A stretch of 64,000 nt of DNA from Mesodorylaimus sp. YZB2_4 (lineage: Eukaryota; Nematoda; Enoplea; Dorylaimida; Dorylaimidae). Location: contig JASANH010000626.1 in the NCBI GenBank assembly GCA_030248295.1, positions 2,232,001 to 2,296,000 on the forward strand, written 5' to 3'. Of the stretch, positions 4,859 through 52,078 are shown in pieces; position 1 is the stretch's first letter, and every line of letters starts with the position of its first letter. A program made the position numbers and the translations under genes. The notes under the pieces are model-generated. The model ran no database searches and was not told the DNA's origin. It worked only from the letters and a program-made list of their open reading frames with translations.

Positions 4859-4975
4859 ATCAGCACTGTGCGTCTGCTTAGCTGATCGAATCAAGCACTG
4901 ATAAAATACACATGTGACTGTGCCAAACTAGGTCATAGAATACTCTAGAATAGTGATGGGAATGGACGTCCACTG
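4859..4975 (+). repeat. Dispersed repeat, copy 1 of 2
   Basis: Closely matches 9291-9403 in the same orientation. Shared blocks include TGTGCGTCTGCTTAGCTG, GTGCCAAACTA and AGTGATGGGAATG followed by GGACGTCC. No coding content and no clear terminal repeats, so the element class is unknown. Confidence 0.75.
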
Positions 4976-5312: not shown

Positions 5313-5462
5313 GGGCTTAAGAGTGCGTCATTCACCGCTTTTATAAGAGCGAGCGCATAGATTCTAGTCTAGTGTATCCGTGAGCAGCGCTCGCGATGAG
5401 CGCTGTTTGGGCAACGATTGAGAAGGAAAGGTTGCTTTAGTTCTTTCTGCTGTGTTTGAAGC

Positions 5463-14400: not shown

Positions 14401-17400
14401 TAGCGGAGCTACAATTATAAGAATTTGCTGAAATGGGTTCTTGGGCATAATTCCAAATATGATAGACTCTCGACATACGGTACATGATACAAAAACAGGT
14501 AACTACAGAAACCAGCATGCGTACAGCCAAAAATTTGAATTTTTCTCTGTCAGTATGACAGTTTACATGCGTATATAAAGTCCCACGCTAGGCTGCACAG
14601 GCGCATTTTACACCGATGAAAAGTAGGGACTTCTCATCGATGCAAAACTGGCATAAACTTATCGAAAATTCAAATTTTGCGTTGTACGAGGCCTATGAAC
14701 TGGTTTATACTTGGGACTAACACCTGCGACTGTGGGACCATTTTGCCAAGGGCCGCAGCCACAGCCCGCGCTTGTGGTCCAGTACAGTATATCCGTATAG
14801 TCCACCTTCGGGTCGCAAGGCCTGCGACACATAGTAGTACCATAGTAATAGTAGTACATAGTACCTGCTGTACTAGTAAAAGGGGGCCTGCAAGTATCTT
14901 ATAAATTCAATAGTTGGTCAGTGACCATGTAAGCGGCAAGTATTCCGGACTGGCGGGAAATTTAAACTAGCGTCATATAGGGGTCATATATCACATGAAA
15001 CGGGAAGTACCCTTGACTTCAACTGACTCATAAGTCAGCCTTTGACGATCGTCTTCAAAAATTTGTTTAGGGTGGACGTCGGATAATGGTTGAACTATGC
15101 GCTCATCCTGAATTTAAAAACGTCGAAAAAGACGTTTGCCAGAAGATTTTGAAAGAATTATGCGATGCTGTCATTGATAAATTCGACCAGTTGGAAGTAA
15201 CTGAAAGCATGATTTTAGTCGTTGCAACATTTTTCAATTTTTTATTCTAGGAGAGGAATCAAGTTTTGGCCGCGATTAAAGACAACCTAAAAAAAGTTAA
15301 TGTCAAATCGACGTTCAGTGAGTTTTTCTCATCAATTCTCGTAAAAGCATGGCCGGCAGATGAAAGTATGAAGACTGTTGTCAAACACTTGACCGAGTGG
15401 CCTTTGATCCGGTTGTACATGAGCCAAGGTAAGCACATTGCTGTGGCCAAGAAATAAAAAGCTTATCCCGATCGGGAATCGAGCCCGCTCCTGTCATGAC
15501 CAGTGATCTCAGGCGTGGGGGTTCCATTCCCGCTCGGGGCTAACCTTTAATTTTTTATTTCTTCCACCTGAAAATACTGGTGCTCATTGTCCTAAGTCCT
15601 CACATTTTGCGTTAGAAGTTGAGTTTCCTTATTTCAGACGCGGTCGATTGGCATTACTTGACAGCTCAGGCACAGGAAAAACTGAAACATGGCAAGGAAC
15701 GAGTCGAATGGATGGCAACTCTTTGCCGGCTTGGAAATCTGAAAGTGTCGGTTGTGCGGTATTTGCAATCAAATCAAGACAGTTTTGTGGATTTAACTCG
15801 TTATTGCAAGTGTGACAATATCGAGGCCATTTTGGTGAACTCGTATCAGGTCGTTGCGCAGCTGGCCCAGCATGTCGATCGCTTGAAATTGTTGAAACGA
15901 TACTTGGAATCGTCGAGGAAGCTGATCGGTAGGTAGATTTCTTTTGTTCCGGGTATGGGCAAGGTCCAGAAACAGACTCGAAAAATTTAAGAAAATTGGT
16001 GCGAAATTTCCCGCCCTTCTGTAAATTTGATGTATTTCTCGCTACATTGTACAGAAGGCTCCTTATTTATCTTGTCGTTAGATTTCGCATCATACGGGGG
16101 CCTGTCCAAAATGGTCGATCAAGCCTAGGTAGATCATTTCTTGTGCCCATACGTACATACTCAACTCTCCCCCTCTGGAAAGGCTATGCTTGCTATCCTA
16201 CGAAATGTTGATTTTCACTCTATTTTTAGATGATTACGATGATTTCATGAAGCCGATAAACTTCATTGATCAGGATCTGACGATTCTAGAAATAGCTGAC
16301 CGAGATGCAATGACGGGCAAATTTCAGTTGAAGTGGTCACTATGCCAGGCCATGATGACGTTGATCGAGCGACTTCAGTCGGTGGGTGAAAATGTGATTT
16401 TCGCTCACTTTTGGAAAGCGGCCATGAATGGCATTCCATCGAACACACGAATTTCAGTCGTCGACGTGCTGAGTGTTCTGTCAGTCGCTGAAAAAAGAAT
16501 CGATGAATTATTGGAGTCGTTACAGAATTTGTCAATCCCTTTGCGAGATCTCGACGTACTATTAGAGTGGGCTGAGCCGACTTCACACTTCGCTCACAGT
16601 TTGGAACTTCTCTGTCGTGGGCTTCAGCGCGGGCACAAATGGATTAGGGCGACCATGGATCGTATTAGCATCTATCAAAAACTAAAAAAATGTAGACTCG
16701 TTAGTGATGGCCTCGTTAAATTGGGGGGCAAACTTGGTTTGAATCGATGTATCGAAGATTTAGAGCGAATCGCGTTGGTAAGTTTTGGATGGGTCGGGTA
16801 CTCGAAAACCTGAGTCCTGTGCGAGAATTGAACTGCTCCCTGGAGACTTCTGCGTAACATGCTCCTAAACCACTTACTGTGTGTGTACTATTAGGCCTTA
16901 CGACAGGTCGACAAGTCCGCTCGCACTTGCAGGCACGCAAAGTGTAGGTTGCAGCTAGTTCTCTTGTTAATCAGACTCGTTAATTTGGCACTTATCGAAT
17001 TTTACCGAGTCGAAAAGAGATAATATTGCAGGTCCAAGATGAAGGCAGCAACTGTCAGTTGGCCGATGTTCAAGACCATTTGTTGGACAGTTGCAAAGCC
17101 ATCAGCAAGCTCGAAGATGTCCAAGTTCAAATATTGGAAGCGCTGGTCAATTCATGGGATTTCGTCCAATGGACTCGCACATTTGAAGGTATGTGGGCTA
17201 GCTGATCTTCGTGGCTTATCCTGTTTGGGTTTCAGTCAACTTTGACCTGGAGGTCGAATGCCACGCCCACATCTGCTTTACAGCAAGAACAGAACGACCC
17301 ATGTTTACATTCTAGGTGAATCTGATTTCCAGAAGTTTGTGAGCATAGCGAGTACAAATGTGGTCGAGAATGATTATGAAGCAAGCCGAATTATTGATGC

Positions 17401-20400
17401 CGGGGATGTTGTGGCGGCCTGCGAGCCTATTATTTACAGTCGATTTCCAACCGACGGCTCCTTGCTCGATTTTGTGGCCCTTTTTGAACCAACCTGGAAA
17501 GCTTTGGCTGCTGATCCTAAGCTAATTGACAAAATAGTACGTTGAAAACAGGTTTCCCTCTGATAAGTCTAAGCTGCGGTATTTCATAGAAACAAGCCGG
17601 TTTGGACTGGCGTCAGTTGAAGGAAGATGAAGAACGCAGTACAAGCTTGGAAAAATCGACTTTAGCGCAGACGAGAAAAATCAATGAGCTCGGCGTCATC
17701 CTCGTTGCATATACAGATCCTAACAATGCACCGAAAGTATGTTTTTCATTGTTCCTTAGAAACTCTTGTCATGAAATCGTAATTATAGGACTCTGACGAA
17801 TGGATAACGATCACGGTAGAGGAAGAAGGAAAACCGAAGAAAACTTACTCGCCAACTGAATTACGTGATTTGCACAGCCGAGCAGTTTTGATCGATGCAC
17901 AGAAAGAAAAGGAAGTGAAAGCTAAAGAGCAGCTAGAGATTTTTAAAAATGTAAGCATTTGCAATTTTGGATTTGCTGGAAGAGGTGCGAGGCTTGCGGG
18001 GGGCTGCACATCAATGAACAGCAACATGGTGGTCCAGACCAGGATCTATGACATTGAACTTTTGTACTGGGCTTGTCTGAGGTCCTGCATAGGTGCTGGT
18101 AACCACTTGTGGTGGGTAAGGGGAGGAAAGTTGGGCATCTTAAACAGCAGATAAAGTACAGGTAAAGGTCTGGTCACGGGATGGAGGCTGAGCAGCAGGG
18201 TACGATTTGATCTCGCCGGACTAGGGCAGTCTGGTATGCTGTTATGTTCGAACTCCTTTGTTTCCAGCTTTACCAAGAAACACAGGACTTGGCGAAAGTT
18301 TGTCAACAGCATCAGGAAGCTGGTAACATTTTATTGGCCAATTGTCGATGCACATTTTCCATGGACCAAAGACAGGCCACTCGTGCGCACGCTAATTTGG
18401 GCGTCAAGGACCTGTTGAAGAGCACGTACTCGGACGACGATCAAAATAGGACGACACTCGAAGAGATCAAGGCCCTGCGTCGATGTATGGAAACAGCGCT
18501 GGTCGAATGGGCAAAGTACATTCAGAATGTGCGTACCGAATTCCCAATTCTCAATCTGTTCACGAATCGACAGATCGAGTTTCTGAGGCGTCGATTGGCA
18601 CAGAGCGATCAAGCATTGGGCGATGTCGTGGTCATGTACTTGTTGTGCATCATGAGTGCGGTGAAGGCGGACGACGTGAGAGAGGCGAATGAGCACTTCA
18701 AGAAGTATCAAGAGGAAGAAGAAAAGAAAAGGAAAGCGCATGGTGATGGCAGAAATGAAAATGAGAGGAGTGAATTGTGGAAAGAATCGTGTCTGCGAGA
18801 ACTGAAGATGGTCATGAACGCTGACACCGATTTGGCTCGTATCGCGCTTGAGGTGGCCAACTACGATGTGGACCAAGCTGTGCAGTGGATCCTGGCCAAC
18901 GGAAAACGATTGCGCGCCGAAGCAGCGACGGCGGCGGCGCAATCAGCTGATTCAGCTTCAGGAACGGAAATGGGTGTTCAAGAAAACAAGCCGTTTTCTG
19001 AAGCTCTTACTCGATTGGTCGAACGTATTCAAAAGGATCGACAAGGACTCTTGGCTAAGAAAATAGAAGCTGCTAGGCGATTTCATATTAACAATCACGA
19101 AAAAGGAAGTTTTAATGAATTTATCAGTTTAAAAAATTTGGGTTTCATTTTGGATTTCTGGTCGAAGCGGGTGGTTGAAACTCGTGATACAGTCTCGCCG
19201 TGTCGGGAACTGGAAGCTGGCCTAAAAACGAACGAACCGAATTTACTTCTGATCGATGAAAACGATTTGTATCGTCAAGTTTTGGAAATGTATCGTAGTC
19301 AGACCAGTGGTCGATTGCCCTCGTTCGATCAGGTCCTCGTTTGTCGCTCGACCACGACACCTGAAGTTATTCGCCTCTTTATCGATCGCGTTCGACAGGA
19401 ATCGAGCTTGCAGAAAGTGTTTTCGATCATCGACGTTCAAACCTTGGATTCGTCGGCTGCCAGTGAATTGGAGGCGGCTTTAAATAATTTAATGCACGGC
19501 AGTGATCGCCTCTTCTATCTTTTGATGTATGGCGCCAAAGAAAAGTTTGAAAATTGCCACGCCGCTGATATCTTGTTGCGATTTTTACGAAAATTGGTGA
19601 CTTCGATCAACGACGATTGGGACGATTCGCGGCGATTCTTGATTTCGAAACTGCTAAAAAACGGAATCGAATGGAATGGACACTGGGAAGGTTTGAAATC
19701 AGAAGAAATGCCTGTTCGTTTCAAATCGAGTTTGATTACGGCGATTGGATATGGTCACGGAAAATCGATGTGCGCTCAGCAACAATTCAAGATTATGAAA
19801 GAAAAGCAAGAAAAAGCCGGCCAGTTGAGTTACGCTAAAATCCCCATCCACAGTAAGACAATCGATTTCGATTTGCTGTTCGACGCATTTGAAAAAGCGT
19901 CGATGCAATCGTCTGCCTCGAATGGTAAACAGCGATTCTTCCATTTGGACATTCTGCATCATCAAACTCGAGGCGTTGATATTTTGCTATTTCAACTGTT
20001 TGCACTCGGTGGATTCACAACTTCGACTGGACGAGTTTGGCGAGTCATGGAAAATGACACGTACGTCGTGGAGATCGCGTCGACGCCGAACAAGTTGCTG
20101 GCACCGAATCGTGCCGACGAAATACCCGATGGCCGATCGATGAGATTCTTACTGCCGATCGTTGTCTGCCATAGTCCCACAGCAGCTCTGATCAAATCCA
20201 AGGATCCGTCGACTTATAAGAATACGAAAGTGGTTAGCCAATTCTGTGATTTATTGTGGTTAAAGAGTGAACACGCGCAACGATGCTATTTTTACTTATC
20301 GAGCGCCAGCGATCCAATGGATCGAAAAGCAGATGTGGTATTCGACCCGAAGACACCAGCGTGCATGAATGTATCTGTCGTATTGGGGACACTGTTGAAG

Positions 20401-23400
20401 CATTGCTCAGTTTCCAAGCCATCTTGGGCCGAGTTACAAAATTATACGAAGTTCCTGAACAAACAATTAGTGGCTTGCGAGAAATCGGTCTTTTGTCAAA
20501 AGGACGCAGCTGGCGATATTTTGCCTGGATTCCGACAGTTCGTTGTGCATTTTATGAAGTATATGTCCCGAGATTTCGCCACGCGGTCATTGGACATCGC
20601 CGAAGATGTGGCTGACTTGGATCGTGAGCGATTTCATCAACTGGAGGCCTACGAAATCAAGCATCGATGAGAGAAGCACCCACATCCTTATCTATTATTC
20701 AATCATGATGGGACGAGCATGTCATTTTTTGGATGCTGTTTCGATAACCAAGGAAACTTAATAGATCCGAAAAATCCCAGTCATATTTACGCGTCCAAAG
20801 TAGCCGCCATAAACCTGCTGTTCGGTCTTCTTGCGCAAGGTGTAGATTTGAGAGAATCATTCGATCTGAAAGAATGTGTTAAATGCAAGCGGCTGCTAGC
20901 GAGCCAATCAAAACCAAAATACTGCGTGGATTGTCGACGGGAGAAGATGAATACGCTGTGTCGAGTTTTGGGCGTCCCAGAGAGTTGCAGTGATCCCGAC
21001 CCGAATTACGAAATCACCGCTGATTGTGTACTGAAAATGTTGGCGATCGAGATGAGATTACGGTAAGCACATACAGTACTCTATGTGAGCGGGGTGTATT
21101 AGAGGTGTAACCCTCGTGTCTGGTAGGCCATGGCGAGTGGGAGAGAGTAATCGATACTCTCCCCTGGCTGGGAGACGTCAACCCCTCGGGTTGATGTTTC
21201 AGCCGTAGGTATAGTCGCAAGACTTGACTGCTCCAGTCGAAGTATTTGTCCCACCGACGAGAGGTCGGTTCGCGAACCCTCGACCGTCGCTGGCCTTGCA
21301 CTCCAGGCCGTGGGTGACTCACCTAGTACCGTCGAGATGCTCCGAGTGGAGAGACGGAAGCCAGTAGACAGTCTCGGCTGTCTTAACACCGACAGGGTTC
21401 ACAGATCGACGAGGAAGCCGATGCGCATTCCATCATGCCCTCGCGCGGAGGTGTTAAGACTGCGTTGAGTTGAGTCAAGACTGCGTGCTGGTCCCCGCAC
21501 AGCCTTTTTTATAAGGTTTGACTGCTTGGCATACGGAAATAGGATTTCAGCCGTAAATCGTACCAATTTGCTTAATTATTATCCCCCCCCCCCCATAGTT
21601 TCCCGGGGGTAGTGTGGGATAGTAACAGATCGAGGTAGTTCTGTACATGCTATGATTTATAATTAGTCCATGAACATTCTGTTAAAAATTCTCAATGGCC
21701 AAAAGGGTGCAGATGGGAGGAAACTGCTAATTGGGCGAATCACGCATACCGTACTGCGAGGGTGTCGCACTGCTTTTAAGAATAAAACCACCAGTCATTT
21801 GGGAGAGCTCCAATGCCAAAATGTGTTGCACATTAGTTCCCTCCCTTCAAACAGGTCCCCCTCGAATGTTTTTTCCCGCCTCAGACCCATTTTAAATATT
21901 AATTATTCCTGGGGTATTATTTGGCGTTGTTTGAGCAGTAGACCTCCCACGTTCAAGCGAGGATTTATGCAGGATACATACAAGATAGTGGTCGGCCGAG
22001 GGTGACTTTTGTCGAGGTCGAGGTCGAGGCTCAACTTTTTCGATCGCGCAATGTTTTACGTGAAACGAGCAGGCACGTGCCTGCTCGTCTCCAAACTGAG
22101 AAACAGCATCTTGCTTGTGAACCTCGAACCTCAGCTGTTTTTCCTCGAGGTTTAGGTCGGGGTCGAGGCCTCGGCCGAACACTAATACAATACGGCGACA
22201 TGAAGACAGTACCGGGTAGTGCTTCTACGTGTGCATCCAACATACTGGAGAAACGCAGGTTCGAAAAAATTTTAATATTTTTGTTCTACTGTAGATCCGG
22301 GATCCCTGTCATTCTTATGGGCGAAACTGGATGCGGCAAAACTAAGTTACTTCAATATCTGGCTGACCTGAAGCTTCGAGGTTTTCCTGAAATATGGCAG
22401 CAAAAGCGAGATATCGAAGTGCGCGAAGCTAAATTGGAGGAATACGCCAAGAAAGAGAAATCTCCTGTGGAACTGACTGAGGAGGAAGTGAAAGATCGGA
22501 AGGAAAAACAGGTGGAAATCAAAAAATTGAAAGCTGACGAAGCGCCAACAGTGGCTAGATTGAGAAACTTGATTATGCTAAGGGTAGGGAACAAAGAGTT
22601 CCTATTGTCGATTGTCTAATAGATTCCAAGCTGCCAATTTTCAGCTCCATGGAGGCGTAACGAAGCAGCGAATCGCTGATGTAGTTCGAGAAGCCTTGGC
22701 GTTGGCAAAACACAACTGGAACAAGCATAAAATGCAAACATATTTATTTTTCGACGAAGCCAATACGTGTCCTGATGTCAATTTTTTGAAAGAGATAATC
22801 TGCGATAATACGATGGATGGTATCCCACTGAACACTCGAGAGGACCATTTGTGCGTGATCGCTGCAGTGAATCCATATCGGAAGTAAGTAAGCCATAGTT
22901 TTGAGAGGGGACCGGAAACGACCAGCCGTGGACAGACCCCAGGCTGCTCTTGTGGGATGCAGTTGAGAGTTGGCTTGAACAGTATCCGAATCCTGATCTG
23001 AATGGTGTGAATGTAAGCCCATCTAATCTCCTTTGCAGACATAATCAAGAGGTCATTGAGCGGTTTGAATCTGCTGGTCTGGGATACCGTACAGAATCAG
23101 GACATTCGCAAGAGATGTTCGGTAAGACAATACTATTTGCAGAGTGATCGTTACTAAATGACTGCTTTGTGTGCAGGAGATACCCGTATGTGCAATTTGG
23201 TATACAGCGTGGAACCATTGCCGCCCAGTCTGCTAAAATTCGTAATCGATTTTGGTATTTTGGAATCAGATGTCTTGCGAGTATACATTCGACGAATGAT
23301 GGATCGATTCGTAGGGCTCTTGGAGCATTTACAGCACTTATATTTAATCCATTTTTGTCCTCTTAAGCTACAAGAAAGACCGCGTGCGTGTGCGGAAGAT

Positions 23401-26400
23401 GAGCAAACAGAAAACGATGTTTATGAGTTGTTGGCCGCAGTACATTGTTGGATGGTGCAACAGAAAGTATGTTTTACAGATCGGTCAGTTGGGTACTGTA
23501 TGAAATATCTGTTGTGACTTCAGGACGAATCCGGTTTTGTCAGCTTACGAAACGTGGAGAGAACTTTAAAAGCGACTGACTGGTTTTTGCGGCATTCCGA
23601 ATTCATTTTTGAAACAATGGTGGCCAGGAATGGAGCCAAGGTAAATGCCCGTTTTTTCGTGTGCTTGGTAGTTATTTAATTAGTTATCTTTAAGGAAATG
23701 CCCACGTTGAGCCGAGCAATGCTATTGGCTATTTTGGTTTGTTACCGAGCATCGTTACGCGGACGCAACGATGGAAAAGGCCCATCCAAGAGGAAGGAAT
23801 TCGACAAGTTCGTCCTGGACCATTGCGGGGATATGTTCCATGGAAACAAGGACTATACTCTGATCCAGAAGGAAATGGATGCGTAAGTTGATGTCGACTC
23901 TTACTAAGCATACTTATCGCGATGCTCCTTTTCAGATGTCAATCAGTTTTCCTCGATTCGGTCAAGTTGCCAGAGAATGTAGCGAAGAATGCGGCATTAA
24001 AAGAGAATGTGTTTTTGATGACATTGTGCATCGAACTGCGGATTCCGCTTTTCATTATCGGTCGACCAGGCTCCTCGAAATCGTTGGCTAAGATTATTGT
24101 GGAAGACAATATGCGAGGTCACTCTTCGCCCAGTGAAGCGTATAAGCGACTGAAGCAGGTGAGGTGCAGTCTACTTGGTAGGCTTGAGTCGAAAAACCGG
24201 TTAACACCATTTCAGGCATTTATGACTTCGTTCCAATGCAGTCCACACGCGACGGCTGACGATATCGAGGGCGTATTTCGTCACGCAGCCAATCGCCAGA
24301 AAGATCGCGATCTCAGCAAGCATGTCTCGGTCGTGGTGGCCGACGAGTTATGCCTGGCTGAAGAGACATTAGCTCTGAAGTCCCTGCACGGTCTGCTGGA
24401 CGAAGGGGCACCGATTATACTTGGAGGCGGGCAAAGCCAAGAAGACGTGAATCTGCTTCGACGAGCCAGCAGAGTCGGGTTTATCGGAATTTTAAATTGG
24501 CCTCTGGATCCGGCCAAAATGAATCGCGGTCTTTTCGTCACTCGTCCTCTACCCGATCAAGCCGAATTGGTAGAAACGGCACGTCATATCTGCCAGATTG
24601 GAAAACCCGTCTATTACCACGTCGACTTCTTGATCAAGCCGCTGGTTGCTGCCTACGACGAGGTGTATATTAATCAGTGTTCCAATGATGAGACAGCGGT
24701 TTCGGATAGTCAAGGGCAAAACAAAAAGAGACGCCGACTGGAATTCTTTGGTTTGCGAGATTTCTATAGGCAAGTACTCGTAATAAGTTAAGCCTTGCTT
24801 TGTTCCCTGACTGATCGGTTGTAGTTTGATCAAAGCCGTACACGATATTGCGTATGAGAATGGCGAAGCACCCAAATATGACCAAATCTTGACCGCTGTT
24901 GTGCACAACTTCAGTGGTCGAGAAGAAAACCATGCAGTGCTCGTGTTCAACAATCGGCTGCGCAATGCGATGCCTCACCAGGTACCTGTCTGGGTGCGAA
25001 CCAGAGCGCCCTGAAATGATGCACTTCCATTGCAGATTGATGTGGTGCGTTTCTTGAGTCAGCTGGAAACAACAGCGCTGATCAGAGAAAATCTGGTGGG
25101 CTACCCAGCGAGGGGTGAAAAGAGGTACGTGAGCTGATCGTTTGACATATGCCTTTGGAGTCACTTTTGGGAGTGGAATGCAGAAAGGCGTCCAGCACTA
25201 GTCTCAGCGGTCAATTTTGACTGAAGACCGCCCTTACAGGCCTTGCCTCAATCGATATCTACTCGTATTGACCGAAAATTACGCCGCTTTGCCTCTGATT
25301 CAAAATATCGACCAGATGAAAAAAGCGGAAGTGATCTTTGGAAGCGGGTTCCCGAAGGATGTCGAGTACAGGCATATCTGCCGGAACATTAATCGAATCA
25401 AGGTTTGCATGAACAAGGGCCGACCAGTCATCTTACTGAACTCGGATCTTCTCTACGAAAGTTTGTACGATTTGTTAAATCAGGCAAGTCCTTTTATGTT
25501 TGATTTTTTTGTTGATCTCTGATCAGTTTTATTTCAGTCATTTATCCAACGAGGCGGCAAGGATTTTGTGGACTTGGGATTGGGAATCGATCGGATCAAG
25601 TGCTATGTGCACGAGAACTTTAGGTATGCGAGTAGACAAACTCATCACCTACGTCCAGCTGGGTTATCGCCCTCGTGACAATTAGTCCAGGCGCTCAACA
25701 CCCATACGACCGATCCTTGGGATTGCGCAGGTGCTTAGGCGGGGGGCTCAGGCTCTTCACATAAAACTACTTTGTCAGAGCATCAGTTGTCTATGACTGG
25801 CGAAACATTAACCCAACTGGTTGAGCCCACTAGTGCCTATCGATGAGCACATTGCTGGCTCACGAGCACGGGCACACGTTGACTGTGTGGTGATCGGCTG
25901 CGTACGAAGCACAAACGTTGCAGGCTTGTGGTCGTGGCTGAACGAAAGACAGTCTTGGAGAAATTTCCAGCGCCTTTGATCAATCGATTGGAGAAACATT
26001 TTATTTCACTGAGTTCAGAATTAACGGACATCCAGATGGGGCTGGTTAAGAGGTCGGAAGAATGGGTGACCAAATTTGTATCGTATTTTGGCAACGAGTA
26101 AGCCGTGATTTGATTGCCAGGGATGCTTAGTGATCAGCTCTGAACAGAAGGGGGTGGCCAGAGAGCAGAAAGATGAGCACGATTGCTGCTCGCGCACAGT
26201 GAGTAACCAGCCTGCCTTCCATTTCAGATGCGCTAAACCAGCGGATGCGTTCATTGGCTACCACTCGGATACTTTGGCGGCGCTTGTTGTGGATGCGGAA
26301 AGATCTAATCCACACGAGGTACGAATGCACTGTGCGATTTTGATATGCAATGACTGCACACATCTACGCTTTTCAGAAGATTGAAGAAACGATCAAGCGG

Positions 26401-29400
26401 AAGTTGTTGCAGTGCGCTACTCCAGAATCGGTTCTAAGACTTGCAAAAAGTCATCTGGCTGCAGAGGCGGAAACAATCAAGGACATTTTCTTTCATCAGC
26501 AGAATCATAGTAGTTTCGCAGATTTCCTGGCCCCCTTCCTAAATATGGAGCGAAGTGAAATGTTGGTGCAGGTAAGCTAAAACCCTGGTTACCACAATGC
26601 TGTATGTCGTCGTAGTCTGATGCATGTTTCCTTTTTCAATTTTCTTGCAGATTACCACACATTCTCGCCTGCTAACATTTATTGATATTCAAAAGATTTG
26701 TAAAACAGTGAATATCGAACCGACTCGACTGCATATGGTCAACTTGCATCGATTTGACAGCGAAGAGGAATTTTTGGCTGAACTACAGTAAGCAGAATTG
26801 TGTTTGAGTTGCATGGATGTACATACATGTTGAGATCCCTGGACTCCGGATTCCATGGGCTTTGTTATGTAATAGGTGTGTCGACCTGCACAGGAGAGGG
26901 TAGTGTGTTCGGGTTAGATACTCAAGGGAGGCGGAAACATTCCGGGTTCACATCTCTAGCTGCTACGACTGGCAGTGTTCTTGAGTGTCCAACATCCTTT
27001 CCAACATACGGCCGTCCATACGGTAGTTCTACGTGGGATATATAGAATGGCGGTCCCAATTTTATTTGTCCTAGACAACAATACGAAAACAGCAGTTCCA
27101 GTCAAGTCTTGCAATTCGTGATCGTGCAGTGCGCATATAACGAAGGAAAGGATGACAATCTTGTGGCTTCGTGTCGATTTCATTTGGAAAATTTACGAAA
27201 ACGGGTCGCCTACTCTTTGTATCCAGTTCAGCCTATTCTGATACTTTGTCTGCCGAGGAAGAAAGGTGGTTGCTTCGTTGGTAAGATCGTTTCAGTTTTG
27301 CGAGTTGATTTTGTGATGAATACAGAGTTGGATTCTAGGCTTTCAAACTGGTAGTTGGGAGTGTACTCATATCGATGACTTTAATAAAGACCAGGACGAC
27401 GTTGTCGTACGTGGCTTACTGGACATCGAGAATAAGTCCATGGCCGAGTTGTTCGAGGAATACGTGGAACGTATAGAAAACAACGAGCGGCCAGACTGCT
27501 TGAACTTCTCGCCTATCATTTTGGATTGTTTTCAATCGTCTGCAGCAACAATTCGAGATTATTCGAATCGGAAAGTGGACAGAGCTAGACTGCTGTCGGA
27601 ATGCTGGGACAGAGATGGTAAGACTGCGGGAGGTTGCTGTCAAATGGTGTCTGATTAATGCTGCTTCTGTAGAGGGTGGATTCCGCCGGATCTTGTGTCG
27701 ACGACTTTTGCCACTGTTAAAGCAGAAAGAACGAAATCGAGGATCTGGTCGAAATTGGATGCTGGAAGAAGCTGATCGCGACGATTTCATTTTTGAGAAT
27801 CGTACATATTTGTAAGTTGTTTTCAGGAAATTTTGAAACGGGAGGAATATGATGCATTTTTTTAAGCCATGCAATGCGGAAATCGATCGAACTCATGCTG
27901 ACACCAATATTGGCTGGCATGATCAGCCGCTTGGACGTGGGAGATAATTTGAATTTGCTAAACGCGGATTCTCCAGTTTGGATGACTAACTTGTGGACTC
28001 GCTTGTTCCATGACGAATCATTTCTTCCGTTTCATTACGCTAATGATTCGGAACTTTATTTTGAACAAGGCCACGATGGAGAGTTTGCGGCGAGAAAAGA
28101 GTTCGGCATCGACGACAAAGCTCCTTTCAAGACTCCATTTTTTTCGATCGTGGCTGAGAAACTGCAAGGAGCCATCATTTCGCTAGAAACAGCTCGTGGT
28201 GCGTATTAGAGTGGGATATTAGAGTGCTGTTCTATAGTCTGTTTTTTTAGAGGACGCTCGAGACGTGGAAAGAGCAGTGGTGGAAATGTTGGGTGGACAT
28301 TCGGAAATGCCCAACTGGTTCAAACACGTTTTGGAGGCTTCGAAAGACCCTGAATTCATGCAGTACTATATGACCGATATGATAAGACAGTACTACGGTT
28401 CGGAAACGCCAGTGTTGAACCAGGTGGGGCCTTCTAAGTTGTGTGTACACTTATTAGCTTGAGTGTGCTCCTTTCAGTTATTGATCAAGTGGTTGGAACG
28501 GGAGTTGACCAAGGATGACCGTTACGAGTGCAAAGTCGTGGGCGTTCATTTGGCGCACCAGCAACTGGCTCGTCGAATGCGTTGGGCGATGGACATGTTC
28601 GCATCAGCACCGGAAATACTGTCAGCTTGGAATGAATGTCAGGAGCTGACGCAAGGTGATATGGCGGTATTGAATGACTTAAGTTTGGTAAAGGATCTGA
28701 TCTTTTTTAAATCCTTTCTCTTGCATCAAGAAAAACATGCTTTTCTTCAGGAGGTCGATCTGTTTTCTGCGCGTAAAGTCTGCGATTATTTGGCATCGAC
28801 GATAGAGGAACTTGATCGCGGTGACAAAAAAGTAAAGAGGGCCAAATGGTTGAAAATCGTGGCGCAAGTGTCGCCATTGATGAAACAAGTACTGTTCGAG
28901 TTTCCATTGATCAAAGAAGTCAAGTAAGACTTGTGCTCTCTGTTCAGGTTCAATATTAAGTCTAGACTTCTTGCTTAGAGATCTTTGGTTCTGCATTGAA
29001 TTCTGTCGCTCATTTTTGACTCATGTCGATGCATCGAATTATTCGTGTGCTGTTTGGCCCATTTGGAGGGTATGCGTAAGAATTGCGAGCATTTAAGTTT
29101 ATTTTGGAATAGGCCTCGTTTCATATTTCAGTTCGCTGAACAAAACAAAGACGTTCGTGAAATAAGCTTTTGGAAAAACCTACTGAGTGGTTCCCTGGCG
29201 GCGATCACACAAGCTGCATTCAAATATTATTTCAAGTACTCGAGCTTGCATTCGACCCCGCGTATTACCAATAAATTTTATTTATTTTGTAGCTCGGACT
29301 CTGCTTTGTGCCCAGTTTGCGATGACATGATCGCCGATAAGCCACGCCTCTTGGCGTTCATGCATGTTTTGCATGAGCGGTGTTATCAACGTCTAATCGA

Positions 29401-32400
29401 GGATTTAAATCGAAGACGTTGTCCAGTTGACAGATGTCCCGAACCAGATATTGATGTCAATGGTGATGCGACGACCAGTGCAGAACTAGAGTGAGCCAGT
29501 TTTGCTTTTCTGGATTGCTGAATACCTGTCATGGACGTGTGCCTTTTTAGGAGAAGAAAAATTGGCTACAGTGCAACTAGGCGATCGCTGATGGGGTTTG
29601 TGTTGGACGTTGTCTATGAAGCATTCCAAAACAGGGACTCACCGCCGACGGAGGAAGCGATCAAGCATCTGTTGACGTACACAGCTTTCGATAGAGAAGA
29701 CGGCCAGAATGGACGGGTCTTGCCTATTTTCCCAGACAACGCTGGGGTCCAACGATCTCCAGAACTGCGATCATTCCTGTTGCAAATTATTTCTCGGCAT
29801 GAGTAAGTATTGCCTCAGTATTCTGTTTTTTCAAAAGAGAAATTGATGAGTTTTTAGCCTAAATGCGATTCTCGCTCACGTCGAGTCTGTGCTAAAGCCA
29901 TTTGCAGCGAATGAAGAGCGTGAAGCTGACGATGAGCAGGGCAAAATGGTTACAGAATTTTTGCGCATGAGCTTCGATTGCGTTGAGGTAAATTTCTGTA
30001 AACTGCTGATGTAGTTCTGTTCTCATGCCGTATTTTTAAAGGACACGTTTCACGCTAAAATGGCGGCTGAAGAAGTTGGTGGTTCGGATTTCAGTTACCT
30101 GATTTCAACGATGTCGAGCTTGTTGGAATCACCCGACAGCGAATTACCGACGTCAATTGCTTTAAGCCTGGGAGCTCAGGCTCGGTTTGTCATCTGCACG
30201 TTGGTTGATTTTGAGTGGAAGCGACGGAGGAATGTGATTAGAGATGACAGCAAATGTAAAATAAGTAGTTGTTTCAGATCGATACAAACTAGTTTGGAGT
30301 TTTGCAAGCCTTTGTAGGGCGAGACCTCTGGCAATATTTGAATCGCCTTACCACTGATTCGGGCGGCACTCAGTTTGGGGAATTGTTTGGGCACTTTTTG
30401 GCATTGCGCTATGGGCAGGACACGTTGGATCAGATTATGGGACAGGAACAGTTCGGTTCAACTGTCATGCAGCTGACTGCAGCAGAGGTAAGGTGGGCGA
30501 CAAGACAGGCAGTGGTTGCTGTGCACTACTCATGCTGCACTAGTCTGAAACGCCTGACGCATAGAAACGTGGGAGCCTACGCCGTTACAGTCTTGTGGGT
30601 TAGTCGACTTCGTCACTTTGATCCTCATAGTAAGGAGTTTCTTGAGCCGAGATAAGTCAGTATTCAATCCTGACCAAAAGATCTTCCGGCGGCATTAACG
30701 GCACACAGCGTCTGGCTGAAAGCGATGGGGGAGACTTATTACTAAAAATTCACGCTGCTTTTCTCTTTGCAGAATCGTGGTCACATTGATCCATTTGCAA
30801 TCTACGGCCCAACTTACAGTATTGTGAAGAATGCGCTGATTCAAGCACTGGCGGCCAACAATGTCGACAAGTTCAAACAGCTGATTTCTACGCAGGTACT
30901 CGTTTATTATAGTTAGATTTTTTCTTAGAAACATCAAGTTTTTTCAGCCTATGGTCAATCATCCGAAACTACCGTCGTCAGTACCGTTGTCGTTGAGCTG
31001 CGCGTTGCATGCGTGCAAATCAATCTGCTTGGAAAAGGCTGACACGACCGATCGTATCGCTGAGGCTGAAAATCTCGGCCACTATTTGGACATGAGAACC
31101 TTATTAGAACGGCTGAGTCGGATCCCCGTTGGTCATGGAGTCAGTGGATTCATCTGGCACACCATTTGCATCGTTCGCTTGCTGCCGGATGGCGGAGTCG
31201 GACAGTTTTTCAAGGATTTATTATTGACGCCGAAGGAATGCCAAGTACGAAGGATCAGAAATGTGTTGACCAAAAGGGTGCAAATGACATGACCGTTTTA
31301 GAGAGCATGGTTCCCAACTATGGACGAGGAAAGAGGGAATGATGAAACAAGTGCGAAAATCTACGGTACGGCTTCGGTTCGCCTGCTCGACGTGTTCAGT
31401 TTCAGATTAGTTTTATTTTAGAATGCGCAAACGGGCATCGATATCTTATTCAAACAGCAAAGGACGGGCGAAATTCCTATTCTCATTGCCGCCAATGCAA
31501 TGTGAAAGTCGTGCCCGTGAAAGGAAATCCAGTGTTTGAGAGGTACTGTGTATCTAGAGATTTAATTTGGTTCAACTTCAGCGAGTAATTTTAAAATATT
31601 GTTAGGATCCGCGAAGTTCAAACTGGCCATTGTTTGGGGCCAACGAGCAAGTCGGCGAAGCCAGTTGACCAGATGAGCAATGCGAGTGTGGATGTCCTGC
31701 TGACTCGATGCGTGTTGCACGCGACCATGTTTGGGGCAGCGTTGTACAAAGGAATCGAGGTACAAGGGTTCGAAGTTTCTTGTTTTCATTCAAACACTTG
31801 TCCTTGCAGGATGTGATTCCTATGATAACTCCATCAATTCAAGATCAAGACCTGTATCAGTTTTTGGTAGACCATTTTGAGCGTGACATTTTATTGCTGT
31901 CAGGATACTTTGGCTGCACATTCGACGACACGCTCTTGCTGCTACATCAAATGCTGCGCCTATGGATTGAGGGCCAAGGTAGAATATGGATTGGTGTCTA
32001 CTTTTATTGGGGTCGACTCAATTGACCTGATTGATGCCTAATTTAGCCTACAAAAATGCCTTCTCATTTGCAGCTGGTCCATCCAGAAAAACCGAATGGG
32101 ATAGTCAAGAAGATCGCGTCGCCTGGGAGAAAAAATTTCGCGAAAAAGTCACAAAGCGTGTGGTTGTGGTAAGCTATGATTTGCTATGGTAATTATCTCT
32201 TATGCGATTCCTTAATTTTTAAGGAGAATCGTTCTTTGATAGCGGCGGCTCGTCAGAAGATTATTGAGAGTGGAGGTAGGCTTGAGCACTCCTCGGTTTC
32301 TGTCTTTTTCCAGTCGCATACCTATTCACCCAGGCGTAGTTTTTGAACGAGGGAAATATACCAATATAACTGCATACTTGTTTTGCATAAGGGAACTCAT

Positions 32401-34575
32401 AGCTACTGTTTTATCTGTGACTTTCCTACACCTGCATTTTTCTAGATGTCACTGAATTTTGGCGCAAGCTGTATACTGCTGATCAGGCAAGCTATGATTT
32501 GGCCGAGAACCCGTTTTATTACCGCCCAAGCAGCAGTTTGGATGCGATAAGACAACAAGCTTTAAGCTGTTTGCAATCGAGCGATTCAGCCATGCGATCA
32601 CGCTTCAATCTTTTGAAGAAGTTCTTGGAGCAGGTGAGGACAGCATATTAGATATCTTGGTATTAAGCGTCAGGGAGTTTCTTGTTGCAGATGCCATATT
32701 TGAGCGCACTTCGTCATTTATTGTCGATTCGAGACCTTCATCGAAAATTGGCAGCCCACTTTCACGGATGCATATCGGTGACTGCGGTTGAGAAAATGAA
32801 GATTGAACAGTTTTTGAAAAATTTGAATGGTAGGGATTTTCCAATCAAGGTTTCACTCCTGGAAAGTGTTCTTTTTCGGTTTAGATCCAGTCGAAGAGTC
32901 GACCTACAAGAAGTTGATCGACGCATTTTTCGATGCTTTCTTTGCGACTATGCCTTCAGCAAAGAAGAATGTTTTGTTGTCACACTACTCGGAGCGTGTG
33001 TACCAACTGCCCCTGATGATCCTACTACCATATCCCACTGGTCTGGGCCACAGGAGCTGCGAATTGGTGCGAAAACTAACTGCTTTGCAAAACGACCTTC
33101 TTAACGCGACTTTGGAAGACAATTTGGGGTGAGTAGGTTTTTTTTATCGCGTTTTTATTGCGTATTTAGCCTACATTGAATTTAGAACTATCGATTCAGT
33201 GGATTACAACGATTTGATTGCCGCTCAAGTCATCGATTTCGATCCTTGTCAGGATGGCCTGAAGCTGCTGATGTTACACCGACGATTCAGCGGAGAGAAC
33301 AGTCAGATTGACATGTGTCAAAGGGTGCATTTTGACTTAGAGTGGCTGCAGCAAAGAGTCCGAAGATTTGTGTTAGGATCAGCCGTATTGATTAAACCCG
33401 TGGTAAGTGGATTCGCTTTTTGTCAAATTTCTTTGCGTGAGGTCAAAACGGCCTGCTAGTTGGCGTATGAGAAAAACCTCATGACGGCCACATTGGCAGA
33501 ATGCCTACATAGTGCACCAGTACTCAATAGAGCGAGGCAAAAAGGCAAGTAAATCTGACCAATCAGAAATTAATGAGTGCCAACCTTCAAAAAGGGGTTT
33601 CTATTTCGCAATTTTTTTTAGTTTCCATTGTTGAAAGAAAAGGAAGCCTTGATTTTGGAATGCATCGGTCGATTGAGGTCTTACGGAGTGGTGAGTCCAT
33701 TGCCGTGTCTGTATGACAAGTAGCATAGGCATTTGGGTTTGTTTCAGGAGGAGTTGAGTCTAACACAAAGAAAAGACATTTTGGATCGATTGCGAAAAAG
33801 TTTACCAGAAACTAAGCAATTGTGCGACGATCTGGAATTAATGATACGATTTTCATCGGCTTTGAAGGAATCGGCGTTGAAGGAAACTTCTTTAGAGGAG
33901 TTCTTCCTGCGGTTGAAACCAGCAACTGATTATCCGGTAAGGTTGTTGGCCGTTTCTGCTTGCTTTAGAGCCTAAACTTTCTTATGTTGCAGATGCTGAG
34001 ATGCTACAAAATCGCGCATTTGCTTCCAATGTGGCAACTGGCAGCATTTTCGGTCAAGTGTCTGCTGATCGAGACCAAAATTGAGGTATGACGTGTAACT
34101 CACTTTAGCCAGGTATCTGCTGAGGGTTGCGCTTATGCCGACGCCTTCTACCTTTTTCAGGATCCATTCAACGAATTGAGTTCAGTGTTCAAAGAAAATT
34201 TGACCCATGCGGGGGAACGCGACTTGGAAGAGGCTCTAAAATGCACGGATACATTGCAGTTCTTGATGGATGCGACCGAGTTCATGCTGCTTGAATTGCA
34301 GCAAGTTTCTGGCAGTGCTTTCGAATGTCAAGCGCCTGGCAGAGCCGTCGAAGAACCGTAAGTATAGCATTTGCTGATTGACCGTTTTGAGGTCTAACAC
34401 ACGACCTTTTGTTAGGCTAAAAAAATACTTACCAAAGCGCCGTGAAAAGCAGCTGGTCAACGGCGAACAATCAGACGATGTCAAACTGTTGCCTGACTCG
34501 GTTATGGTCAAACACGTGGTACAAGTATGGAAATTCGCTACCAGCCGACAAGCTTGGCGCGTGAATTTAGAATAA
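5463..34575 (+). CDS. rnf213: RNF213 orthologue (AAA+ ATPase / E3 ubiquitin ligase), whole gene
   Basis: Giant dynein-like AAA+ protein that is also an E3 ligase, known in vertebrates for lipid-droplet and antimicrobial ubiquitylation. About 64 exons joined by phase give about 5,070 codons (human protein about 5,200), colinear with the human protein from the CBM20 region to the C-terminus. Landmarks in order: CBM20-like exons, helical stalk, GETGCGKT (AAA3), GRPGSSKS (AAA4), RING region, CANGH RZ finger, C-terminal domain. Exon 1 (5463..5559) is inferred from its good donor and exact phase match to 10734. One in-frame TGA (20668-20670) interrupts the long exon 18. Two junctions, 14349/15071 and 33544/33622, do not keep frame as read. 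If the TGA is real the gene is broken or read through; otherwise it looks functional. Confidence 0.88.
6139..6226. mobile_element. 88-bp Tc1/mariner-type MITE
   Basis: Perfect 27-bp terminal inverted repeats beginning CACGGTGTCCCAAAAGTC, flanked on both sides by a TA dinucleotide (inside TATA). TA target duplication and the CACGGTG terminus fit non-autonomous Tc1/mariner elements. Perfect arms suggest a recent insertion. Confidence 0.92.
6385..6515 (+). repeat. SINE-like fragment
   Basis: Inverted partner of 46150-46325. Shared tail includes a GTAAAAAATGAT block, CTCGAG near the middle and CTATGGATAAAATATGACATGACATG at the end, with gaps and substitutions. The tRNA-like head is poorly preserved in this copy. 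Confidence 0.65.
7041..7230. repeat. 10-bp satellite, short outlying block
   Basis: Degenerate tandem units of CTGACATACA / CTGATATACA. Same family as the main array at 7575-8969, separated from it by about 340 bases of unrelated sequence. Confidence 0.9.
7575..8969. repeat. 10-bp satellite array with 74-bp higher-order unit
   Basis: About 1.4 kb of CTGATATGCA / CTGACATACR units with occasional 12-base units. A 74-bp pattern (10+12+12+10+10+10+10) recurs, for example starting at 8407, 8481 and 8555. The unit lacks stop codons on the minus strand in any phase, so three overlapping minus-strand frames of about 460-490 codons stay open; these are by-products of the repeat, not genes. Confidence 0.95.
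9291..9403 (+). repeat. Dispersed repeat, copy 2 of 2
   Basis: Partner of 4859-4975, same orientation, with substitutions and short indels. Confidence 0.75.
10225..10499 (-). mobile_element. TGTA-ended MITE family A, intronic copy
   Basis: Inverted relative to the copies at 38211 and 59311. Starts TGTAATAGGCGG and ends CGTACTACA. It is about 30 bases longer than those copies because the GGCNGCCAGTNAAGGCAACC block is present twice. A matching target-site duplication is not evident. Confidence 0.8.
10734..12080 (+). CDS. rnf213: RNF213 module: acidic N-terminal region
   Basis: Exons 10734..11416, 11862..11990 and 12040..12080 (with exon 1 at 5463..5559). They encode an acidic Ser/Asp/Glu-rich, probably disordered segment, followed by a Gly/Pro/Val-rich stretch. 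Human RNF213 also begins with a long disordered acidic region, but residues are not alignable, so this part rests on splice phase alone. Exon 1 ends in phase 1 and exon 2 restores the codon GAA, giving MEKENGADMDD across the junction. Confidence 0.65.
12685..13536 (+). CDS. rnf213: RNF213 module: CBM20-like domain
   Basis: Exons 12685..12822, 13021..13190 and 13250..13536. The pattern KIFFVVMTSPSF, then YALFVGSI, IEYSYYKL and DDYYQFDG follows the human CBM20 region in order and spacing (FFHAIISLHF, DRVLVEGI, IPYKYVI, DWHQYYD). This carbohydrate-binding-like fold is placed before the stalk in the family. Sugar binding is not established for this protein. Confidence 0.75.
13804..17950 (+). CDS. 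rnf213: RNF213 module: helical stalk
   Basis: Exons 13804..14057, 14155..14349, 15071..15196, 15251..15428, 15638..15928, 16230..16777, 17032..17188, 17316..17536, 17590..17736 and 17789..17950. All are rich in Leu/Lys/Glu, as expected of an alpha-solenoid. The clearest match is ILVKAWPADESMKTVVKHL with the human VITKSWPRTADNFNDILKHL region. Exon 14155..14349 ends in phase 2 but 15071 is open only in phase 0; by alignment about 200 human residues have no counterpart there, so an exon between 14350 and 15070 was probably missed or lost. Confidence 0.75.
16803..16885 (-). repeat. tRNA-like sequence in RNF213 intron
   Basis: On the minus strand an A-box-like TGGTTTAGGAGCATG is followed about 30 bases later by a B-box-like AGTTCAATTCTC. 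Acceptor-stem pairing is poor, so a tRNA pseudogene or tRNA-derived SINE head is more likely than a working tRNA. Confidence 0.45.
18268..21062 (+). CDS. rnf213: RNF213 module: exon 18, UBA-like segment, AAA1/AAA2 core and linker
   Basis: A single 2,795-base exon, far longer than the others. It carries a UBA-like segment (18799-18903), then the AAA1-AAA2 core (FDQVLVCRSTTTPEVIRLF matches human YDEVLLCTPATTFEEVALLL; WAELQNYTKFLNKQL matches WSELRNFARFLNYQL; FVVHFMKYMSRDFATRSL matches FVVTFMIFMARDFATPSL). No Walker A lysine motif is visible in the AAA2 position; human AAA2 has GVGKS there. A TGA at 20668-20670 stands where human has Trp in RKRWESEPHPY. After it the same frame continues with HPHPYLLFNHDGTSMSFFG, clearly homologous, to the exon end. 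Confidence 0.82.
18799..18903 (+). other. UBA-like segment inside RNF213
   Basis: Encodes MNADTDLARIALEVANYDVD followed by QAVQWILANG. The pattern (hydrophobic helix, two-residue turn, D-x-x-x-A-V-x-W-I-L) is that of a ubiquitin-associated three-helix bundle. I know of no UBA domain in human RNF213. Inference only; the segment is short and could be a chance helical match. Confidence 0.5.
20668..20670 (+). other. In-frame TGA in RNF213
   Basis: Codon order is CAT CGA TGA GAG AAG. Both flanks are homologous to human RNF213 in the same frame, with TGA aligned to a Trp (TGG). The next base is G, not the CTA of the strongest readthrough context. A single G-to-A change or base-call error explains it. 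Confidence 0.85.
20875..20934 (+). other. Four-cysteine (CxxC...CxxC) insertion in RNF213
   Basis: Encodes CVKC, twelve residues, then CVDC, a spacing typical of a small zinc ribbon or knuckle. It sits just before the AAA3 domain, where human RNF213 has a lysine-rich linker without these cysteines. Confidence 0.65.
21100..21325 (+). repeat. Dispersed repeat family B, near-complete copy
   Basis: In RNF213 intron 18. Core GGCCATGGCGAGTGGGAGAG, then CTGGGAGACGTCAACCCCTCG and a tail with GTCGCAAGACTTG. Related copies or pieces: 35375-35420, 46793-46860, 47640-47672, 47995-48145, 59035-59195 and 63213-63790. The downstream part (21255-21325) is inverted relative to 35490-35585. No protein coding. 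Class not determined. Confidence 0.8.
21326..21985 (+). other. Intron 18 middle, repeat remnants
   Basis: Contains a GTGCTGGTCCCCGCACAGCC block near 21488 shared with 34790-34945 and 55735-55830, then poly-C and AT-rich sequence. No exon seen. Confidence 0.5.
21986..22184. mobile_element. 199-bp MITE centred on a 24-bp perfect palindrome
   Basis: Ends TAGTGGTCGGCCGAGG and, inverted, TAGTGTTCGGCCGAGG (one mismatch in 16). Near the centre (22065-22088) lies a 24-bp perfect palindrome, ACGAGCAGGCAC and its complement. Lies in RNF213 intron 18, about 110 bases before the AAA3 exon. Confidence 0.7.
22295..23466 (+). CDS. rnf213: RNF213 module: AAA3 ATPase
   Basis: Exons 22295..22583, 22645..22883, 23039..23121 and 23177..23466. 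Walker A GETGCGKT at 22320-22343 and Walker B LFFDEAN near 22746 keep the catalytic Lys and Asp-Glu. NPYRKHNQEVIERFESAGLG and YSVEPLPPSLLKFVIDFG match human closely. Between Walker A and LHGGVT there is a charged, coiled-coil-like insertion of about 55 residues that human lacks. The ATPase site looks active. Confidence 0.9.
23524..26571 (+). CDS. rnf213: RNF213 module: AAA4 ATPase and following AAA5/AAA6 region
   Basis: Exons 23524..23640, 23695..23882, 23936..24158, 24216..24769, 24825..24981, 25036..25124, 25240..25483, 25538..25623, 25924..26097, 26228..26318 and 26377..26571. Walker A GRPGSSKS (24060-24083) and Walker B VVVADE (about 24330) match human GKPGSSKS and VVVLDE. NWPLDPAKMNRGLFVTR, LRDFYSLIK, RYLLVLTENYAAL, FGSGFPKDVEYRHICRNINR and PLINRLEKHF are near-identical landmarks. 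Two introns have GC instead of GT donors (24770 and 25484). In DFYSLIK the Ser codon is split across the first of them, which fixes that junction. Confidence 0.9.
26651..28923 (+). CDS. rnf213: RNF213 module: hinge and E3 shell
   Basis: Exons 26651..26787, 27075..27280, 27339..27617, 27673..27811, 27867..28198, 28251..28423 and 28478..28923. ITTHSRLLTFID matches human ITTFSRLLTSHD; GFQTGSWECTHIDD matches GFHGGLWQSVHIDD; LTPILAGMISRLDVGDNLNL matches the human LTPLLASMISFIDRDGNLEL block. A 63-base in-frame piece near 28688-28750 has a GTAAAG start and TTCTTCAG end and may be an intron rather than coding. Confidence 0.82.
28979..29802 (+). CDS. rnf213: RNF213 module: RING region
   Basis: Exons 28979..29069, 29132..29490 and 29551..29802. 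RING-like sequence spans 29309-29437: CPVC, then FMHVLHERC, then CPVDRC. Against human RNF213 (CSIC ... CDHVHC ... CPYC) the third ligand is Phe (TTC, 29357-29359) and the last Cys of the final pair is Asp, with a Cys two residues later. The fifth ligand is His, acceptable in RING-H2 types. Two of eight zinc ligands therefore look altered. A 57-base in-frame piece (29236-29292) could be an intron. Confidence 0.8.
29858..31244 (+). CDS. rnf213: RNF213 module: E3 core between RING and RZ finger
   Basis: Exons 29858..29987, 30042..30255, 30318..30487, 30773..30895 and 30948..31244. KWRDLWQYLNRLTT aligns with human NDWHRVYLVRKLSS, and NRGHIDPFAIYGPTYSIVKNAL with HPGQMDRYLVYGDEYKALRDAV. Helical and without catalytic motifs of its own; it packs round the ligase module in the known vertebrate structure. 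Confidence 0.8.
31302..31759 (+). CDS. rnf213: RNF213 module: RZ finger
   Basis: Exons 31302..31365, 31422..31542 and 31606..31759. AWFPTMDEE matches human AFLPTMPED directly before the finger. The finger reads CANGHRYLIQ, then HCRQCNVKV, fitting C-x-N-G-H ... C-x2-C of RZ/ZNFX1-type zinc fingers. VQTGHCLGP follows, as human TQTGHVLGN. In vertebrate RNF213 this finger is required for ubiquitylation of lipid A. All expected Cys/His are present here. Confidence 0.9.
31810..34575 (+). CDS. rnf213: RNF213 module: C-terminal domain
   Basis: Exons 31810..31978, 32074..32168, 32224..32275, 32446..32633, 32691..32829, 32885..33128, 33186..33402, 33460..33544, 33622..33690, 33748..33936, 33993..34085, 34161..34357 and 34416..34575. 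LPDSVMVKHVVQVWKFA near the stop matches the human end FPEEILLASCVSVWKTA. The junction 33544/33622 does not keep frame: the donor CAAAAAG|GCAAGT ends in phase 1 but the next exon is open only in phase 0; one A fewer in the A5 run would repair it. An ATAAA-type poly(A) signal lies just after the stop (34580-34589). Confidence 0.82.
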
Positions 34576-51827: not shown

Positions 51828-52078
51828 TTCAGTTTAAAAAAGAATACTGTGGGATTCAAAAAAATTATTTTGATCTTTCGCACCAACTTGAATAGCTGTC
51901 TGACCTGTGTTCTCCCGTACGCGATGTGTGTGGAGAGTCAGTTCTTCTGTAAGCCGCATCTCAGCTGACTTGGCATTTCGGTTTCGGTAGGACTCCAAGA
52001 ACCAGCGATTTGTTCTAAAAGTCTAGCTCCGATAAAAATTTGTTCACTTCTGTTTTTTGTGAAGAAATAATAGGCAGC
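51828..52078. promoter_or_regulatory. Bidirectional promoter region, SMPD4 / PRRC1
   Basis: At most about 250 bases separate the SMPD4 open frame (-) from the PRRC1 start (+), less if the possible SMPD4 leader exon at 51905-51960 is real. Both genes must start here. No TATA box in a standard position was seen. Confidence 0.6.

Follow-up and report, generated by a model that had tools for sequence, protein, structure and literature searches.

An RNF213 homologue in the genome of Mesodorylaimus sp. YZB2_4 is interrupted by one in-frame TGA, which stands at a tryptophan column invariant in all homologues compared. We consider this TGA to be, with reasonable probability, a recent nonsense mutation, so that the affected copy is a null allele or a null that has just become fixed. 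The gene lies in the window, the whole stretch of 64,000 nucleotides of DNA that was analysed, and it has a second, diverged copy elsewhere in the genome, on the contig that we call C304.

The TGA falls within one long exon of the homologue, between the codons for KHR on its 5′ side and those for EKHPHPYLLFN on its 3′ side (Table 1). Around it, the exon frame remains open for 819 codons upstream and for 131 codons downstream, up to the modelled splice donor at 21063. In the original prediction, this frame was described as clearly RNF213 on both sides of the stop, which independent PDB searches confirmed: the parts upstream and downstream of the TGA, searched separately, matched RNF213 with E-values of 1.9e-33 and 1.7e-10, respectively, and the matched positions in the RNF213 chain are consecutive. 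The first residue past the stop is residue 2260 in chain 7oik, and if this numbering is carried over from the match, the tryptophan of the stop column would correspond approximately to mouse residue 2259.

Alignment to the RNF213 of relatives had been proposed as a check. We aligned seven homologues from six species, obtained by protein search (lamprey, amphioxus, Nematostella with two isoforms, a gastropod, a sponge and pig), and all seven have tryptophan at the stop column, though no close relative is among them. A search with the TGA exon for close relatives gave no match among the 7994 scored candidates that shared most words with it, and a Pfam scan of the same exon assigned no family. 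The C304 copy likewise has tryptophan at this column, flanked by similar words (RERF..LEAY..KHRWE..PHPY). The in-frame stop at a conserved tryptophan was thus correctly predicted, as was the position of the next in-frame ATG.

Table 1 Features of the RNF213-like gene in the window (positions are those of the window).
Feature	Position	Strand	Basis or remark
Aligned part of the RNF213-like gene	16640..34533	+	Spliced alignment; 3910 codons, 53 introns, 0 frameshifts, 1 stop
Exon containing the TGA (part of N-arm/linker, AAA1, AAA2)	18268..21062	+	Spliced alignment; PDB matches on both sides
AAA2-like nucleotide-binding loop GYGHGKS	19747..19767	+	Upstream of the TGA; AAA2 label putative
Short (48 nt) in-frame GT..AG stretch, the only one whose excision would eliminate the TGA; non-intron by score	20624..20671	+	Splice-site score -1.2
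In-frame TGA at tryptophan column invariant in all homologues compared	20668..20670	+	Sequence; W in 7/7 homologues and in the C304 copy
Next in-frame ATG past the TGA	20719..20721	+	49 bases downstream
AAA3 Walker A GETGCGKT, intact	22320..22343	+	Downstream of the TGA; putative position of mouse K2387
AAA4 Walker A GRPGSSKS, intact	24060..24083	+	Downstream of the TGA
RING, third Cys replaced by Phe, fifth ligand His	29309..29437	+	Ligand alignment, Pfam
RZ finger, nucleophile (human 4516) replaced by Ala, base His (4537) not found	31424..31494	+	Alignment, Pfam; roles from PMC11549300 and PMC12075652

The gene was modelled by spliced protein-to-genome alignment, with penalties for frameshifts and stops, GT/GC-AG introns and a profile of the seven homologues. 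In the resulting model of 54 exons, the TGA is the only stop; 1075 codons lie upstream of it and 2834 codons with 48 introns downstream. N-terminal exons further upstream are outside the model. Colinearity over the linker, the six-AAA core, the E3 shell and the CTD, seen in the alignment to the seven-protein profile and in the PDB matches, identifies the gene as a member of the RNF213 family by descent. Most introns are short, with 35 of the 53 measuring 50–63 nt. The intron directly following the TGA exon (21063–22294) is unusually long with 1232 nt, compared with 317 nt for the next longest, and contains an inverted repeat near 21377–21463 that may mark an inserted element.

The original prediction had also described the gene as otherwise open. 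This holds for the model, with the reservation that two of its introns, 24994–25062 (score 7.0) and 30912–30981 (score 4.3), are weak and unmatched in the C304 copy and may conceal a small lesion or a misplaced boundary. The several stops, frameshifts and broken splice sites of a decayed pseudogene were not found; the model has one stop, no frameshift and these two weak introns.

It is accordingly highly improbable that the gene is an old pseudogene or that the genome reads UGA as tryptophan. The stop itself would fit both, and the weak introns might hide further lesions; an old pseudogene would, however, hardly show a single lesion in its model, and the genetic code looks standard judging by three kinds of sequence evidence. 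We examined 31 columns with tryptophan in at least six of the eight other sequences. The window copy has a gap in six of them (the N-terminus upstream of the model) and the stop in one; in the remaining 24 it has 17 tryptophans, all encoded by TGG, seven other amino acids and no TGA. Among 144 kinase matches in the genome, the nine with the highest scores have no internal stop, and the three tRNA-Trp genes that were found all carry the anticodon CCA. None of this points to a nuclear code with UGA for tryptophan.

A base-calling or assembly error would leave the animal with a tryptophan codon and a whole gene. We regard this as unlikely, yet it is a rival to be taken seriously: one substitution suffices, the gene model is without any other lesion, and the assembly search lists one copy of the window locus, so there is none to compare. 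No second copy or allele of the window locus without the TGA was among the loci from the genome search. Against an error stands the quality of the surrounding sequence. The models of both copies together cover 7736 codons (~23 kb of coding sequence) and, doubtful introns apart, contain neither a frameshift nor a further stop, pointing to good assembly quality. Moreover, we inspected 21 kinase matches in 20 regions, hand-picked among the 144 listed for the presence of a stop and little room for introns and representing a subset of such matches. None of their stops lies inside conserved exon sequence; 19 are within nine codons of the match end and two in intron-like inserts.

Least probable among the explanations considered here is splicing, in which a short in-frame intron or exitron containing the TGA would be cut out of the transcript. 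The model introns are short, and a 48-nt GT..AG stretch spanning the TGA (Table 1) could be excised without loss of frame. For scoring, splice-site profiles were built on the model introns of at least 49 nt in both copies (102 in total), with two short C304 introns of 45 and 39 nt left out. The stretch reaches -1.2 (acceptor -5.5), less than any of these 102 introns (minimum 1.4, median 17.2), and the segment is conserved with the C304 copy (RERF..LEAY..KHR). The best of 171 in-frame candidates (GT..AG, 40–600 nt) scores 7.5, at about the 5th percentile, and would delete 119 codons.

Recoding would yield a full-length protein, either by ribosomal readthrough with insertion of tryptophan at the UGA or by A-to-I editing to a tryptophan codon. 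Readthrough at UGA has been reported to insert tryptophan, among other residues (PMC4207609), and in Fusarium in-frame stops undergo A-to-I editing (PMC4817773). The genome contains one gene with an adenosine-deaminase domain, conservation past the stop equals that upstream, and A20670 is predicted to be paired with a probability of 0.89–0.93 in four spans; it pairs preferentially with 20727 in the shortest span and with 20634 in the other three (0.40–0.49), which would be compatible with an editing duplex. The details of the site speak against it, and we judge recoding to be very unlikely. The context is UGA GAG and not UGA CU(A), the motif reported to be leaky in animals and fungi (PMC4207609). 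The 201-nt fold at the TGA is unremarkable, with a z of 0.37 and 127 of 200 shuffled sequences folding at least equally well, and the nearest listed inverted repeat is 15 nt long with arms 1 kb apart. Rfam gave no match in the window at the gathering threshold.

The three tRNA-Trp genes, sought by similarity to a generic tRNA-Trp, have 5-bp anticodon stems in addition to their CCA anticodons, although a suppressor of other sequence could be missed in this way. The deaminase gene may encode ADAT1 and not ADAR, and PDB searches with it gave nothing; we take its motif to look more like that of ADAT1. This gene (PF02137, at C2:1494176–1495665) is the only one of its kind found, and the animal may lack ADAR editing. 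Two further candidates were rejected. The idea of a four-bp anticodon stem in tRNA-Trp (PMC13092985) does not apply, as the stem has five pairs in all three genes. Selenocysteine insertion was dismissed on the lack of Rfam matches in the window at the gathering threshold and on the tryptophan present at the column in all sequences compared.

For the second copy, we searched the genome (145 Mb in 1067 contigs) with the TGA exon and obtained two loci, the window with its one TGA and C304:1224–3962 with 46% identity and no stop. A search with the AAA4 region returned the same two loci only. After adding the window protein to the profile, the C304 copy (C304:61–15613) was modelled with 3826 codons, 51 introns, no frameshifts and no stops; it starts at the edge of its contig. 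A spurious 48-nt intron of an early model disappeared with the better profile. Introns at 42 of the 51 C304 positions match one of the 53 window introns in phase and position (within two columns), and the identity between the two copies is 42.8% upstream and 44.7% downstream of the stop.

The C304 model is weakest where the RING would be expected. Three of its introns are weak (4864–4944, 5347–5400 and 10245–10289); in place of the last, which has 45 nt, a 78-nt intron at 10192–10269, whose sites are good, is preferable. Another intron, 10392–10430, also has good sites and, with 39 nt, is shorter than any other trusted intron. If it is left unspliced, an in-frame TAA results, and the open frame at the lost RING therefore needs this intron; the best-scoring splice pair of the region, 10192–10430 (239 nt), shifts the frame. 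Judging from these sites, the C304 copy may be damaged too, at C304 10180–10480. Its standing as a back-up is uncertain because the frame at the lost RING depends on the doubtful 39-nt intron.

To place the stop within the domain layout, we compared the window copy with the mouse protein, in which the AAA core starts at residue 1775, AAA2 binds ATP and AAA3 and AAA4 are described as the competent units (PMC7311170). The nucleotide-binding loop upstream of the TGA is probably that of AAA2, given its order in the gene and the mouse description (PMC7311170), and the AAA3 Walker A lies downstream. Walker A and B motifs of AAA3 and AAA4 are all present in the window copy (GETGCGKT, LFFDEAN, GRPGSSKS and VVVADE). 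Its AAA3 Walker A lysine falls on 2387 when counted on from the end of the 7oik match via the pig sequence, and the mouse AAA3 Walker A lysine is K2387 (PMC12075652). A product truncated at the TGA would thus hold the N-arm, the linker, AAA1 and AAA2 and would be without AAA3–6 and the E3 module. The expectation of a stalk-only protein has to be revised, since the AAA core starts well before the stop column and AAA1 and AAA2 are included. The prediction that translation would end before AAA3/AAA4 and the E3 module was right about the AAA3/AAA4 motor, which would be removed; the E3 module was already without its predicted catalytic residues.

In human RNF213, the RZ finger binds metal through C4505, H4509, C4525 and C4528, with C4516 predicted as the nucleophile and H4537 as the base (PMC11549300). 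In the same report, none of three pathogen substrates was ubiquitylated by the C4516S variant, and RING inactivation was without effect on the two bacteria among them (PMC11549300). The catalytic pair described for mouse is Cys4462 and His4483 (PMC12075652). In the window copy, all four metal sites (C, H, C, C) are kept, but the nucleophile position is alanine and the base column is a gap. In the C304 copy, the metal sites and the nucleophile cysteine are kept and the aligned base column is tyrosine, likewise in the sponge; in the pig record, the RZ finger is incomplete. Against a cut-off of 27 bits, PF20173 (RZ) scores 15.2 bits in the window piece and 45 bits in the C304 copy. A genome-wide search with PF20173 listed C16, C304 and C18, and not the window. 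The two further RZ-finger matches (C16:317840–317953 and C18:903379–903432) are perhaps ZNFX1-like.

In the RING of the window copy, six of the eight ligands are as in the relatives; the best RING model scores 24.2 bits against a cut-off of 27, and PF00097 scores 19.8 against 21. The C304 copy lacks the RING segment. The window copy thus has neither the complete set of zinc ligands, Cys4516 and His4537 of an active RZ-type E3 ligase nor the eight C3HC4 metal ligands of a RING E3, and already before the stop arose, it probably had a motor but no working ligase. We consider these paired E3 losses the more interesting part of the result: the window copy is without the RZ nucleophile and a part of its RING, the C304 copy without the whole RING. 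The RNF213 motor seems to have been separated from its two ligase centres in this lineage, which, if so, would allow motor function to be tested without the ligase.

These losses also allow a more elaborate form of recoding, in which the window protein serves as a non-catalytic RNF213 partner or decoy of the RING-less C304 protein. Its UGA would be recoded to tryptophan, through readthrough or RNA editing, in some tissue or state, switching between a stub ending with AAA1–2 and the full-length protein. We consider this very unlikely. A recoded stop would be a rare instance of regulated termination midway through a giant protein.

Returning to a recent null, we looked for differences between the parts before and after the stop. 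No decay is seen in the part past the stop, which is conserved as well as the upstream part: the identity to the C304 copy is similar on either side, and so are the changes at outgroup-invariant columns and pN/pS. Changes confined to the window copy or to the C304 copy number 10 and 6 upstream and 36 and 31 downstream, respectively (Fisher p 0.59). Between the two copies, pN and pS are 0.383 and 0.804 upstream and 0.371 and 0.771 downstream, with pS saturated.

The lack of further lesions limits the age of the stop. With the window gene's own codons, 4.0% of random substitutions give nonsense. If nonsense, frameshift and splice lesions are counted and indels are assumed to amount to 10% of substitutions, the probability that a neutrally evolving copy has acquired no second lesion is down to 5% at 0.20% divergence; with nonsense alone, it does so at 0.64% neutral divergence. 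If real, the lesion would therefore be very young, ~0.2–0.6% neutral divergence at most, a bound that a hidden lesion would loosen. Divergence of 0.2–0.6% is in the usual range for alleles within a species.

The replacement of the invariant tryptophan by the TGA would turn the window copy into a null or a just-fixed null in the following way. The transcript would be expected to undergo nonsense-mediated decay, because 48 modelled introns lie downstream of the TGA, and whatever protein is still produced would stop behind AAA2. A loss of this kind may be tolerated, as the C304 copy keeps the AAA3/AAA4 motifs and the RZ nucleophile. Before the stop arose, the window copy had probably been a paralogue without catalytic activity, with alanine at the nucleophile position and one RING ligand lost, and the loss of a copy that probably had no ligase activity would be easier to bear. 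A recent null in a duplicated gene, the most likely reading, is an ordinary kind of event. Among the options originally listed, namely sequencing error, null allele, recent pseudogenization and readthrough, the young loss of function is favoured, error is still a serious rival and readthrough lacks support.

RNF213 is an immune gene in mammals. The stop, if real, catches a giant gene at the very start of its loss, with a second copy present. Among the papers listed by broad term searches of the literature, none dealt with an RNF213 stop or an RNF213 paralogue pair in invertebrates, an absence that carries little weight for searches of this kind.

Outside the RNF213-like gene, the window contains an SMPD4-type open frame (PF14724) of 809 amino acids on the minus strand (49407–51833). 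It matches a metagenome protein with 62% identity and five others with 25–27% (octopus, Hymenoptera and one unnamed), suggesting a poorly sampled lineage. There are also two long tandem arrays, at 7575–8969 and 44595–45654. One is based on a 10-bp repeat, the other on 20.8 copies of a 51-bp unit that are 97% alike, and the array with the 51-bp unit sits in long open frames on both strands.

Compared with mouse and human RNF213 (mysterin), a giant AAA+ E3 ligase, the window copy shares the colinear arrangement of linker, AAA core, E3 module and C-terminal part and keeps the Walker motifs of AAA3 and AAA4. It differs in the TGA before AAA3, in the change of the RZ nucleophile from cysteine to alanine and in a RING that is one ligand short. 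The C304 copy represents the same gene by its identity and its 42 common introns but, in contrast to the window copy, has no stop in its model, keeps the RZ nucleophile and lacks the RING segment. In the PUK1-type genes of Fusarium, stops are removed by A-to-I editing (PMC4817773), and the window gene resembles these in that its stop is one A-to-I step from a tryptophan codon in an otherwise intact gene. Unlike them, it is an animal gene and without sign of unusual structure. With nonsense alleles and young unitary pseudogenes of animals, the window copy has in common a single point lesion, the introns and the frame being otherwise intact in the model.
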